A DNA stretch of 64,000 bases, taken from assembly GCF_017939745.1 (NCBI RefSeq), contig NZ_JAGKQQ010000001.1, positions 2,542,001 to 2,606,000 on the forward strand, read 5' to 3'. The first letter of the stretch is position 1. Every line of letters starts with the position of its first letter. Positions 4,683 to 9,093 of this stretch are shown here, piece after piece. Origin of the DNA: Gemmata palustris (GTDB taxonomy: Bacteria; Planctomycetota; Planctomycetia; Gemmatales; Gemmataceae). The notes beneath the pieces were generated by a model. It saw nothing but the letters and a program-made list of their open reading frames with translations, was not told where the DNA came from and did not search any database. The position numbers were made by a program, and so were the translations under genes.

Positions 4683-5003
4683 GTGGCGAAGGCCAAACAA
4701 GAGGGGAAGACCACCCAGAAGGCGATGGTCCAGGCCGCGCTCGACGACAAGGGCTGGAAGGTCGGTCCGCAAGAGTTGCAGGCGTTCATCAAGGAACAGT
4801 ACGACACCGAACTCGCGACCAACATCATCTCGAACTACAAGTCGGTAATCAAGCGCGAGACCGGCAAGGGCGGGGCCAAAACCGGCGCCCGTAAGAGCGG
4901 CGGGGCACAGTTCTCGGACCTCCAGGCCGTTCAGAGCCTCGTGAACCGCCTCGGCGCCGACCAGGTCAAGAAGCTCGTGGACGTCGCCGAAATGTTCGCG
5001 TGA
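4683..5003 (+). CDS. Small conserved basic protein, function unknown
   Basis: This is a 106-residue lysine/alanine-rich protein. Residues 1-55 suggest a compact helical domain (QKAMVQAALDDKGW, then GPQELQAFIKEQY and NIISNYKSVIKRE), followed by a flexible basic linker (TGKGGAKTGARKSGG) and a C-terminal amphipathic helix (LQAVQSLVNRLGADQVKKLV). The first domain looks like a helix-turn-helix or winged-helix fold, and with the basic linker this would fit a DNA- or RNA-binding protein. That is inference. It starts with ATG after a CACCGGAGCACCACC leader containing a GGAG site. It lies directly upstream of the tRNA-Leu gene, with the tRNA promoter in the gap. I do not recognise a named family. Confidence 0.75.
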   Translation: MAKAKQEGKTTQKAMVQAALDDKGWKVGPQELQAFIKEQYDTELATNIISNYKSVIKRETGKGGAKTGARKSGGAQFSDLQAVQSLVNRLGADQVKKLVDVAEMFA

Positions 5004-5051: not shown

Positions 5052-5384
5052 GGGTGAGTGGTGGAATGGCAGACACAGGGGACTTAAAAAGAAATTGAGC
5101 CACGGGAGGGGAAACCGCCCGTGGGATGCTGTCAAATTCGGTGGAGCCCCTGCTCCGGCGAGGTAACACCGAGCTAAGTTTGTTCTTCACACGTGTCGCG
5201 CCCCGTTGGTACGCGAAGAACAAGAAAGTGTAGAGACTAGACGGCAGCGACCTACGGCGGGCGCCCACGGTCAAGGTATAGTCCAGACCACGAACCCGAA
5301 TACGAACGGGGCGGCGAAAGCCGAAGTGGTACGAAAATCCCCCGTTCCGTGAGGAGCATGCGGGTTCGAGTCCCGCCTCACCCA
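5052..5384 (+). tRNA. tRNA-Leu(UAA) interrupted by a group I intron
   Basis: Exon 1 is 5052-5085 and exon 2 is 5334-5384, giving an 85-nt tRNA after splicing. The acceptor stem GGGTGAG (5052-5058) pairs with CTCACCC (5377-5383), followed by discriminator A. The D-stem is GTG/CAC. The anticodon stem GGGGA (5078-5082) pairs with TCCCC (5338-5342). The anticodon loop is C-U-[U-A-A]-A-A, with the intron after U34. A long class II variable arm (GTTCCGTGAGGAGC) is present, as expected for leucine. The T-arm is GCGGG/CCCGC with loop TTCGAGT. CCA is not encoded. A strong terminator follows 22 bases downstream. Confidence 0.95.
5086..5333 (+). ncRNA. Group I self-splicing intron (IC3-like) in the tRNA-Leu(UAA) anticodon loop
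   Basis: This is a 248-nt intron between U34 and A35. The upstream exon ends in U and the intron ends in G (5333), as group I splicing requires. A P2-like stem is seen at CCACGGG (5100-5106)/CCCGTGG (5118-5124). The P7 core pairs GACTA (5235-5239) with TAGTC (5279-5283), within the conserved strings AGACTAGACGG and AAGGTATAGTCC. A P9 hairpin has a GAAA tetraloop (CGGC GAAA GCCG, 5312-5323). The stretch GATGCTGTCAAATTCGG and the P7 strings closely resemble the small IC3 introns of cyanobacterial tRNA-Leu and Azoarcus tRNA-Ile as I remember them. There is no open reading frame for a homing endonuclease. Confidence 0.93.
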
Positions 5385-5406
5385 CTGAAGTACACGGCTA
5401 CAGTAC

Positions 5407-5434
5407 ACGGCGGGCGCGTCCCGCCGTTTGTTTT
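5407..5434 (+). terminator. Rho-independent terminator of tRNA-Leu
   Basis: An 8-bp perfect stem ACGGCGGG/CCCGCCGT with a 5-nt loop is followed by TTGTTTT. It lies 22 bases after the tRNA 3' end. Confidence 0.85.
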
Positions 5435-6513: not shown

Positions 6514-9093
6514 TCACTTCTTGAACATCGCGCTGTTGCGATCACCGCGCGACAGCACATACGCCATCAGGTCCAATACTTCGTCTTCCTTAAACGTGTC
6601 CAGCAAACCGGTCGGCATCATCGAAATCTTCGACGGGCGCATGCTCTCGATCAACTTGCGGTCCACATTCACCGCCGACCCGGGATCGAGCATGTTGGTG
6701 TTCACCATCACGGTGTCGGCGTTCAGATTCACGATGCGCCCGGAGATGACGCGCTCGTCGGTAGTGCGGATCTCGACCGCGGCGTACTGGTCGCTGACTT
6801 CCTTGCTCGGATCGAGGATGGATTCCAACAAGTCGCGCGGGCTGAACCGGCCGGCGACGCCGGTCAGGTCCGGGGCGTTGCTCCCGCCCTCGTTGTCGAA
6901 CCGGTGGCACGCGAAGCACTTCCCGGCCGCGAACAGCTTGCGCCCGCGGTCGTAGTCGCGGCCCGACTTCATGCCCTTATCGAGTGCGTCGGTCAGGTCC
7001 GCGATCTTGTACGCCTTCACGAACGGCCGGGCCGGTTCGGGCGGCAGTTTCACTGTCGCGGGGTCCGCGTTGATGAGATCCTTGAGCGCCACCTTCTCCG
7101 CCGGCGCGAGCGTGACAATCGCGTCGTCGCGGATGAGCTTCAGGAACTTACCGAAGCTGCTCCCGCCCTTGTACGCGGCCGCCTTCACGAACCACTCGAA
7201 GTACCCCGTCCGCAGTTCCGGGGTCCAACCGGTCTTGAGCATCCGCAGCGCGCGCGCGTACTCGATCTGTTCTTCCTGCGTGGGGGCGTCCTTCAGTAAC
7301 TTCACCCCGATCGGCGCGGCCCTCTCGTCTTGGAGGTACACGAAGACCGGCAGCAGTTCGCCGTTCACGAACCGGTTCTTGTCCGGGAACGCGGGGGTGA
7401 ACTTCGCCAGCCACGCCTTCCGCTCGTCCGCGGTCGGCGGGCCGAAGCGGTTGAAGAGGACGTGGTACACGCGAACAACATCGAGCTTTTGTTCGTCGGT
7501 GAGTTTCGCGAAATCGAAGCGCGCGAGTGCCTCAAGAACCTTCGCCCGCAGAGCGGGATCGGGTTTCGGATCGCCCGGCTTCGCGTGCAACGGGCACGGG
7601 GCCGACACGCGCACCAGTGCCAGCAGTGCCTGCGTCGCGACGTCGGGATTCTGCGCACCGAGCGCGAGGTCGCGCCAGTCGCCCTTCGGGTGCAGTTCGA
7701 GCGCCGCGCGCCCCTGCATGCGACCGAACCGGTCGGCCCCTTCCATCGTTTCAAAGATCTTCTTGAACGACGGCGCCTTCACCTCACCAGCTTCGGCCAG
7801 ATCCTTGCGCAGTTGTTGAAGCTTGCTCTCCTGGGCGCCGAGCGGTTGCGCCTTGCTCGGCTCTGTCGATTCGGTGCCCACATACGTCACGCGGTAGAGA
7901 CCACTCTTGGTCTTCCGACCTCCGATGGCGAAGTACATCGCGCCGTCGACCGGATTGATGACAAGGTCCGTGAGCGGGAGGGGCGTGCCGGTCACGAACT
8001 CTTCCAGTTCGGCTTTGTAGGTGCTACCGTTCGGAACGAGGTGGGTGGCGTAGAGCTTCCCGTAGCTCCAGTCGCAGATGAAGAATGCGTCCTGGTACTT
8101 GGCGGGGAACTTCGCACCGTACCCGAAGCACACGCCGGTCGGTGACCCGGGGCCGACGTTCACCACGGGCGGGAGCGTGTCTGGGTAGTGGACGGGGTAC
8201 TTGCCCGCACCGTTGCGCCAACCGAACTCGCTACCGGGGGGCACGAAACACACGCGGGTGGGCCGGTACCACGGCGTGTTGAAGTCCCACTCCATGTCGG
8301 CGTCGTAGGTGAACAGGTCGCCCGCCTTATTGTAAGCGGCGTCGTACTGGTTGCGGAACCCGACGCTGAACAGTTCCCAGTTCTTGCCGTCCGGCGACAC
8401 GTTGTAGATCGCGCCGCCCGGCCCCATCACGCCCTTCATAAAGCCGTTGCCGTCCGGGACGCGCGGGAGCAAGTGGTCCTCGCCCCACACCGGTGCGACC
8501 TTCGTGGTGTTGAATTTCGTGATCTTGGTTTGGTTCCCACAAACGACCGTGAGGCGCTTGCCGTCCGGGTTCATCAGCACCGCGTGCGGACCGTGCTCGG
8601 CTCCACCACCCTCAAGGGCGCGGAGCAGTTCCACCGTGTCGAGCGTGTCGTCCTTCTTGGACGACGTGACCCGGTACAGGCCGCTCTTGTTGGATGCGTT
8701 CACCACGACGTAAAGCGCGTCGAACGCCCACAGCAGCCCCTGCGCCGAGCCGATCGCCGCGGGGATCTTCTCGATCGCCGGTGCGCCCGGCGCGCCGGGC
8801 GGGGCGACCGTGACGCGGTACAGCGCGCCGTACTGGTCCGAGACGATGAGCCGCCCCTTCGGGTCGACGCACATGCTCACCCACGAGCCCATCGATTTTT
8901 CGGGATCTGAAGATTTGGGAACGGAGAAAATCAGTTCGACCTTGAACCCCTTGGCGACCTTCATGGTTGCCGGGTCGGTCGCGGGCGGGTCGACGAGTTT
9001 CTTGGCCGGCTGAGCGCCCGTACCCACGGGACCGAGTGCGAATAGTACGGCGGACAGCGCGAACCCGGTCGCGCAGTGGCGGAAACGAGGCAT
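6514..9093 (-). CDS. PVC-type secreted heme-binding dehydrogenase-like protein with C-terminal cytochrome c domain
   Basis: This is an 859-residue secreted protein. Residues 1-28 are a signal peptide (FALSAVLFALGPVGTGAQ). Residues about 45-410 form a PQQ-sugar-dehydrogenase-like beta-propeller (WVSMCVDPKGRLIVSDQYGA, then GNGFMKGVMGPGGAIYNVSPDG and FGWRNGAGKYP). A helical repeat region follows to about 690. A cytochrome c domain comes last, with heme motif CFACH (C726, C729, H730) and a possible distal methionine in the SKISMMPTGLLD stretch. Proteins of this layout are abundant in planctomycetes and verrucomicrobia and are thought to oxidise sugars or other polyols in the periplasm, passing electrons through the heme. 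The substrate is not deducible. It is monocistronic, followed by a strong terminator. Confidence 0.87.
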   Translation of the reverse strand: MPRFRHCATGFALSAVLFALGPVGTGAQPAKKLVDPPATDPATMKVAKGFKVELIFSVPKSSDPEKSMGSWVSMCVDPKGRLIVSDQYGALYRVTVAPPGAPGAPAIEKIPAAIGSAQGLLWAFDALYVVVNASNKSGLYRVTSSKKDDTLDTVELLRALEGGGAEHGPHAVLMNPDGKRLTVVCGNQTKITKFNTTKVAPVWGEDHLLPRVPDGNGFMKGVMGPGGAIYNVSPDGKNWELFSVGFRNQYDAAYNKAGDLFTYDADMEWDFNTPWYRPTRVCFVPPGSEFGWRNGAGKYPVHYPDTLPPVVNVGPGSPTGVCFGYGAKFPAKYQDAFFICDWSYGKLYATHLVPNGSTYKAELEEFVTGTPLPLTDLVINPVDGAMYFAIGGRKTKSGLYRVTYVGTESTEPSKAQPLGAQESKLQQLRKDLAEAGEVKAPSFKKIFETMEGADRFGRMQGRAALELHPKGDWRDLALGAQNPDVATQALLALVRVSAPCPLHAKPGDPKPDPALRAKVLEALARFDFAKLTDEQKLDVVRVYHVLFNRFGPPTADERKAWLAKFTPAFPDKNRFVNGELLPVFVYLQDERAAPIGVKLLKDAPTQEEQIEYARALRMLKTGWTPELRTGYFEWFVKAAAYKGGSSFGKFLKLIRDDAIVTLAPAEKVALKDLINADPATVKLPPEPARPFVKAYKIADLTDALDKGMKSGRDYDRGRKLFAAGKCFACHRFDNEGGSNAPDLTGVAGRFSPRDLLESILDPSKEVSDQYAAVEIRTTDERVISGRIVNLNADTVMVNTNMLDPGSAVNVDRKLIESMRPSKISMMPTGLLDTFKEDEVLDLMAYVLSRGDRNSAMFKK

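Follow-up and report, generated by a model that had tools for sequence, protein, structure and literature searches.

The group I intron of tRNA-Leu(UAA) has long been argued to indicate an ancient cyanobacterial origin, and an intron in the same tRNA is known from a deep-subsurface gammaproteobacterium; in betaproteobacteria, the Azoarcus-type intron interrupts tRNA-Ile(CAU). By group I rules, the 5′ splice site is marked by a U.G pair and the intron ends in G, and subgroup IC3 is marked by a tRNA host, a short P5 without P5abc, and GNRA-capped P2 and P9. The presence of tRNA-Leu(UAA) introns in cyanobacteria and plastids is well established (PMC4476775), and such introns are also reported in Thiomargarita and BOGUAY (PMC4853749). 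A review assigns bacterial group I introns mainly to structural RNA genes, and its available text does not contain the word "planctomycet" (PMC3984707); the tRNAscan-SE 2.0 paper states that some fMet and Ile2 genes are missed owing to group I introns (PMC8450103). The window analyzed here, a stretch of 64,000 nt from the planctomycete Gemmata palustris, contains at positions 5052-5384 of the + strand a tRNA-Leu(UAA) gene that is split by a 248-nt group I intron. The original prediction knew of no description in this lineage, and the titles and abstract starts of the open-access literature likewise yielded none for a planctomycete tRNA-Leu(UAA) intron. This is a known kind of intron in a host group for which we found no report.

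The cyanobacterial tRNA-Leu(UAA) introns share with the window's intron the tRNA, the U34/A35 site, the order of the P1-P9 core, and a similar size (216–297 nt in five introns); the position agrees with the prediction, and the size falls within this range. They differ in sequence, being only 54.6–58.0% identical to the window's intron over the core columns, in P7, where they have C-G at the last step and the window has A-U, and in forming a starred clade of their own (five rows) in the intron tree. Identity was counted over 206 core columns in 84 rows. The six introns from the same genus were 86–98% identical to that of the window, and the closest introns outside the genus among the rows compared were betaproteobacterial tRNA-Leu(UAA) introns (73.6%); three Chloroflexi introns were 69–72% and tRNA-Ile introns of the same family 61–65% identical to it. 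The gamma- and betaproteobacterial tRNA-Leu(UAA) introns have the same tRNA, site, and anatomy as the window's and differ in host phylum, in host tRNA sequence, and in that CCA is mostly encoded, whereas the window's gene does not encode it. Several internal strings had been described as closer to the proteobacterial tRNA-Ile intron, which the comparison does not support: the Azonexus tRNA-Ile(CAU) intron (L222, 291 nt), the one betaproteobacterial tRNA-Ile intron compared and distinct from that of Azoarcus, was the lowest of the 84 rows (48.5%). It is a group I intron in an anticodon loop and has the GACTA strand of P7, as in the window, but by our reading of its exons it lies in another tRNA and at another loop position. 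A second lineage of tRNA-Leu(UAA) introns within the family (genera g15, g26, g34, and g36) has the same tRNA and site as the window's but is about 69% identical to it and lies between different host tRNA exons.

In its default mode, ARAGORN reported no tRNAs in the whole window; with introns allowed, it reported tRNA-Leu (taa) i(35,248), which agrees with the predicted coordinates and insertion site and with the prediction that the tRNA is complete only without the 248 nt. The joined exons form an 85-nt tRNA-Leu(UAA) cloverleaf with the acceptor strands GGGTGAG/CTCACCC, a variable arm, and the anticodon loop CUUAAAA. Since AAAA begins the intron as well as the 3′ exon, the sequence by itself would permit the splice sites to shift by up to 4 nt; their position is set by the U.G pair of the 5′ splice site and by the G that ends the intron. 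The core strings quoted earlier are present (AGACTAGACGG at 5234-5244 and AAGGTATAGTCC at 5273-5284), as are the predicted P7 pairing, GAAA-capped P9b hairpin, and terminal G. Downstream, at 6514-9093, lies a gene for a protein with a PVC-type heme-binding domain, which scored above the cut-off of TIGR02603 and below that of TIGR02604; it is the single feature of the sequence found to point to a planctomycete-type genome.

Table 1. Parts of the interrupted tRNA-Leu(UAA) gene and helices of its intron, in window coordinates (A1, the 51-row intron alignment)
Feature	Position	Strand	Evidence
tRNA-Leu(UAA) 5′ exon, ends at U34	5052-5085 (34 nt)	+	ARAGORN; intron-free orthologues in same-genus genomes
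Group I intron	5086-5333 (248 nt)	+	Rfam RF00028, E=5e-8 (under gathering score); 51-row structure count
P1, 5′ splice-site helix with U34.G wobble	5083-5087/5095-5099	+	First four pairs (CG, UA, UG, AU) the same in 51/51 rows
P2, GAAA cap 5111-5114	5100-5124	+	5/6 outer pairs change on both sides
P3	5128-5133, partner 5240-5245	+	All six pairs form in the window; 72.2% of cells paired, 51 rows
P4	5138-5143/5167-5172	+	99.3% paired
P5	5147-5150/5160-5163	+	72.4% paired
P6	5173-5174/5228-5229	+	Within 5173-5229
P6a/b, long hairpin	5179-5188/5215-5224	+	Within 5173-5229
P7, guanosine-binding helix, GACTA/TAGTC	5235-5239/5279-5283	+	99.2% of cells paired, 51 rows
P8	5249-5252/5269-5272	+	96.6% paired
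P9	5287-5291/5326-5330	+	92.5% paired
P9a	5295-5298/5307-5310	+	79.2% paired
P9b with GAAA loop	5312-5315/5320-5323	+	93.1% paired
Terminal guanosine of intron	5333	+	G before 3′ exon in 51/51 A1 rows; the pattern used to pick rows requires that G
tRNA-Leu(UAA) 3′ exon, A35 to discriminator A	5334-5384 (51 nt)	+	ARAGORN

The group I reading was borne out by a model match, by helix support across 51 rows, and by strong covariation in P7. The Rfam model Intron_gpI (RF00028) matched positions 5076-5306 over its full length with E=5e-8 in a 5-kb stretch, and in a search of the whole genome (9.23 Mb, three contigs) this was the sole match at E <= 0.001 (E=2.2e-8). The covariance search that had been proposed as a check gave a match, but its score of 40.6 bits is below the gathering score of the family (50). 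The intron had a folding z-score of -3.56, and none of 200 shuffled sequences folded equally well. We aligned 51 tRNA-Leu introns out of 59 dereplicated ones, with introns longer than 340 nt left out beforehand (A1); a second alignment (A2) holds 41 rows of 49 offered. Over the 53 named pairs of A1, 90.2% of the cells are paired and 32 pairs change on both sides; the paired percentage leans toward the named structure, since that structure was named from the window and from known anatomy, and the covariation counts lean less. The covariation measure was 0.400, compared with an average of 0.154 for shuffles and at most 0.166 for slid structures. The most telling helix is P7, in which three of the five pairs change on both sides and UA, AU, CG, and GC pairs all occur. 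P1 is 99.6% paired with little variation, and the U.G at the 5′ splice site is found in all 51 rows. P3 and P5 are weaker, perhaps from alignment shifts at bulges, which the aligner may not track. Two named consensus pairs, one in P2 and one in P5, are non-standard in the window.

The anatomy fits subgroup IC3 as described above, to which the intron probably belongs. No ORF of the size of a homing endonuclease, the mark of a mobile intron, is present on its sense strand, where the ORFs that overlap it encode 32–48 amino acids; the antisense ORFs over it (172, 139, 63, and 35 amino acids) are taken as mechanical. Two other identities for the insert were ruled out: an archaeal-type bulge-helix-bulge intron, because the group I core of the insert is complete, and a broken protein gene, because no sense ORF exceeds 48 amino acids. 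A beta_tmRNA match at 5360-5423 was also rejected, as it scored 20.1 bits against a gathering score of 84 and begins in the T-arm of the tRNA-Leu(UAA).

A search of the whole genome with a tRNA model gave 83 hits, and ARAGORN, run at every one, labeled 79. There was no second taa among the labeled places, where the other Leu anticodons were caa, tag, cag, and gag; additional Leu genes (gag, cag, cag, and caa) lie in a tRNA array of the same genome. Four hits had no label (C1:4524537, 5737547, 5816187, and 4041334), and by eye three of these lack TTAA and the fourth is not Leu(UAA). The joined exons, used as a query against the same genome, found their two halves at the locus (E 6e-20 and 8e-13) and no contiguous copy; the next match was a Leu(CAA) gene (5.5e-5). 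We are confident that the intron is a ribozyme of the bacterial tRNA-type group I class. It sits in the single tRNA-Leu(UAA) gene detected in the genome, a gene that a tRNA finder run without introns misses, and because no other such gene was found, splicing should be needed to read UUA. In two arrays elsewhere in this genome (C1:4524537-4526870 and 7843124-7844334), most of the tRNA genes are low scoring; ARAGORN reported 18 tRNAs in the former and 12 in the latter cluster, which have the look of an odd second tRNA set, and two Leu genes of the former are only 75–76 nt long.

By its anatomy and by established group I chemistry, P1 would form between the internal guide UUGAG and the last nucleotides of the 5′ exon, a guanosine docked in P7 would attack after U34, and the freed exon end would then attack after the terminal G at 5333, joining the exons into a functional tRNA. 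By the count of tRNA genes, a failure of splicing would leave the bacterium with no tRNA that reads UUA. The locus could instead be a dead, unspliced pseudogene, with a different tRNA reading UUA, but this is highly improbable: no further Leu(UAA) gene was found in the genome, the ribozyme helices are kept by compensatory changes across relatives, and a complete tRNA can still be folded from the exons. The intron is real and, judged from the sequence, very probably functional.

We then compared the locus among 19 genomes of the same genus by means of the joined-exon query. The gene was split in seven (G000, which is the window's own genome, and G009, G010, G018, G019, G022, and G024), contiguous in 11, and without data in one (G017, 82% complete). 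ARAGORN called all 11 contiguous genes Leu(taa) without an intron, and in two of these genomes (G021 and G023) a 5′ exon identical to that of the window continues directly into AAAATCCCC. The gene upstream of the tRNA (window positions 4683-5003) lies beside it at five intron-bearing loci (G000, G009, G010, G019, and G024) and at five intron-free loci (G011, G012, G021, G023, and G025), which indicates that the intron-bearing and intron-free genes occupy one orthologous place. Intron-bearing and intron-free orthologues thus coexist at the same place within one genus, which makes ribozyme gain and loss directly testable in a tRNA gene for which no second copy was detected.

A tree of RpoB from 18 members of the genus, 17 of them of known state, requires at least five changes in the presence of the intron, a count that does not separate gains from losses. 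Starred forks of this tree join the intron-bearing G024 to G025, which lacks the intron, and the intron-bearing G018 to the likewise intron-free G015; the position of G019 is not settled, and RpoB is a single gene. The intron tree groups G000, G009, G010, and G024 (95/84), and G018, G019, and G022 (98/90), and a tree of the upstream gene did not resolve the branching order. As the intron tree broadly follows the order of the RpoB host tree, the favored history is one in which the genus has had the intron for long and has repeatedly lost it by precise removal. We consider it more likely than not that an early ancestor of the genus members carried the intron, that it descended vertically, and that it was precisely removed on several occasions, for which recombination with an intron-free allele may have been the route.

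At the level of the family, we searched with a covariance model of the 5′ exon and P1-P5. Eighteen of 95 genomes contain a tRNA-Leu intron that scores at least 91 bits (the best of the remaining matches reached 49 bits), 48 contain an uninterrupted gene by a strict pattern, 29 match neither search, and no genome among the 95 has both forms. Presence is also mixed in genus g15, where G037 and G038 have the intron and G036 and G039 lack it. Among 392 genomes drawn evenly from the phylum, only that of the window exceeded 90 bits. The phylum-wide counts scored at most five or eight candidates per genome (eight in the 392-genome count), so that weak matches can be missed; controls were detected in two of 14 named genomes in the five-candidate count, compared with four in a whole-genome search. 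The second-best genome of the 392 (G172, 66 bits) has its match in a tRNA-Arg(UCU) by our reading of the exons, and ARAGORN labels it differently.

A DNA pattern scan of genome records gave at least 118 stretches, of which at least 55 of those listed match the complete exon-intron-exon pattern of tRNA-Leu(UAA) with the same split site; the spread over phyla that it gives is to be read as a minimum and does not estimate frequency. By the titles of the records, the hosts of these are mostly gamma- and betaproteobacteria, and the matches listed also include Clostridia, Chloroflexi, Acidobacteria (Pyrinomonadaceae and Blastocatellia), one Phycisphaerales bin, and one Poribacteria bin; to these we added the tRNA-Leu introns of five cyanobacterial genomes. 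The window's intron is not a unique find, and the range of the textbook intron now takes in a planctomycete family as well as records from several further phyla; the value of the locus lies in mixed presence within one genus and in a wide, patchy spread at the same site rather than in a new mechanism. The intron of one Chloroflexi bin (L134) hardly differs from the one in an Oxalobacteraceae bin (L151), by recent transfer or contamination. Both the Chloroflexi bin and the Phycisphaerales bin (L180) have a tRNA and intron like those of proteobacteria and may reflect contamination.

The original prediction had proposed a tree of bacterial IC3 introns with host tRNA as a check, and had seen the intron as bearing on the question of an ancient origin or of movement between phyla. 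Our tree has 82 rows, with duplicate places left out (of 74 loci, five, L223-L226 and L230, are second copies). A starred branch (96/97) divides it in two. On one side are 34 rows, among which are the window's lineage, betaproteobacteria, Clostridia, and the tRNA-Ile introns; the 48 rows on the other side include the second lineage of the family, the cyanobacteria, and most gammaproteobacteria. This split suggests two separate arrivals in the family. It is tempered by the weak direct placement of the window's lineage (a fork at 79/93, with long branches present) and by AU tests, which reject neither a grouping of the two family lineages (p 0.115) nor one of the window's lineage with cyanobacteria (p 0.391). 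The question of age or movement is answered only in part: vertical descent is favored within the genus, but the deeper branches give no answer.

A horizontal arrival from betaproteobacteria or another phylum, with repeated moves into the conserved anticodon loop from one species of the genus to another, would account for the 73.6% match to betaproteobacterial tRNA-Leu introns, the best outside the genus among the rows compared, for the side of the 96/97 branch on which the window's lineage falls while the other family lineage joins Chloroflexi introns (94/84), and for the patchy presence inside genera g1 and g15. We nevertheless think it doubtful, because the union of both family lineages stays unrejected, the window's lineage is not joined directly to betaproteobacteria, intron and host trees broadly agree in the genus, and a sense-strand endonuclease ORF is absent. 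Descent from a single ancient tRNA-Leu(UAA) intron of a bacterial ancestor, with loss in most lines, fits the sharing of site, P1, and core by records from about seven phyla (as judged by titles, with several of the phyla represented here by metagenome bins alone), yet it appears unlikely: the intron is rare in the phylum (one of 392 genomes above 90 bits, with up to eight candidates scored in each), and some intron clades cross phyla, as with the Chloroflexi bin inside proteobacteria, a pattern that contamination of bins could mimic. A wider proposal, which we put forward only tentatively, is that planctomycetes acquired tRNA-Leu(UAA) introns from different phyla on at least two occasions, once near betaproteobacteria and once near Chloroflexi, and that endonuclease-free, precise gain and loss at the level of species would make the genus a natural system for the turnover of an intron in an essential tRNA.

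Other group I introns were seen in relatives. Six loci of the same family (L197, L198, L202, L206, L211, and L212) have such introns in an apparent tRNA-Ile(CAU), with varying ARAGORN labels; their exons read GGGGACT(T) / CATAATCCC, and the loop position is apparently unlike that in Azonexus. Two further introns, L189 (in G001, 73.8 bits) and L213 (in G019, 67.7 bits), lie in the anticodon loop of an apparent tRNA-Asn(GUU); ARAGORN labels the former Asn and the latter Thr or Ser, and we know of no tRNA-Asn group I intron. L200 and L201 of the same family are, by our reading, intron-bearing fMet-like tRNAs, L203 of the family has a group I intron in an Arg(CCU) tRNA, and L234 of the same phylum has one in what we read as Arg(UCU); the ARAGORN labels are inconsistent among them. 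Group I introns also occur in rRNA genes of the family, in 23S at L187, L188, L191, L199, and L214 and in 16S at L190.
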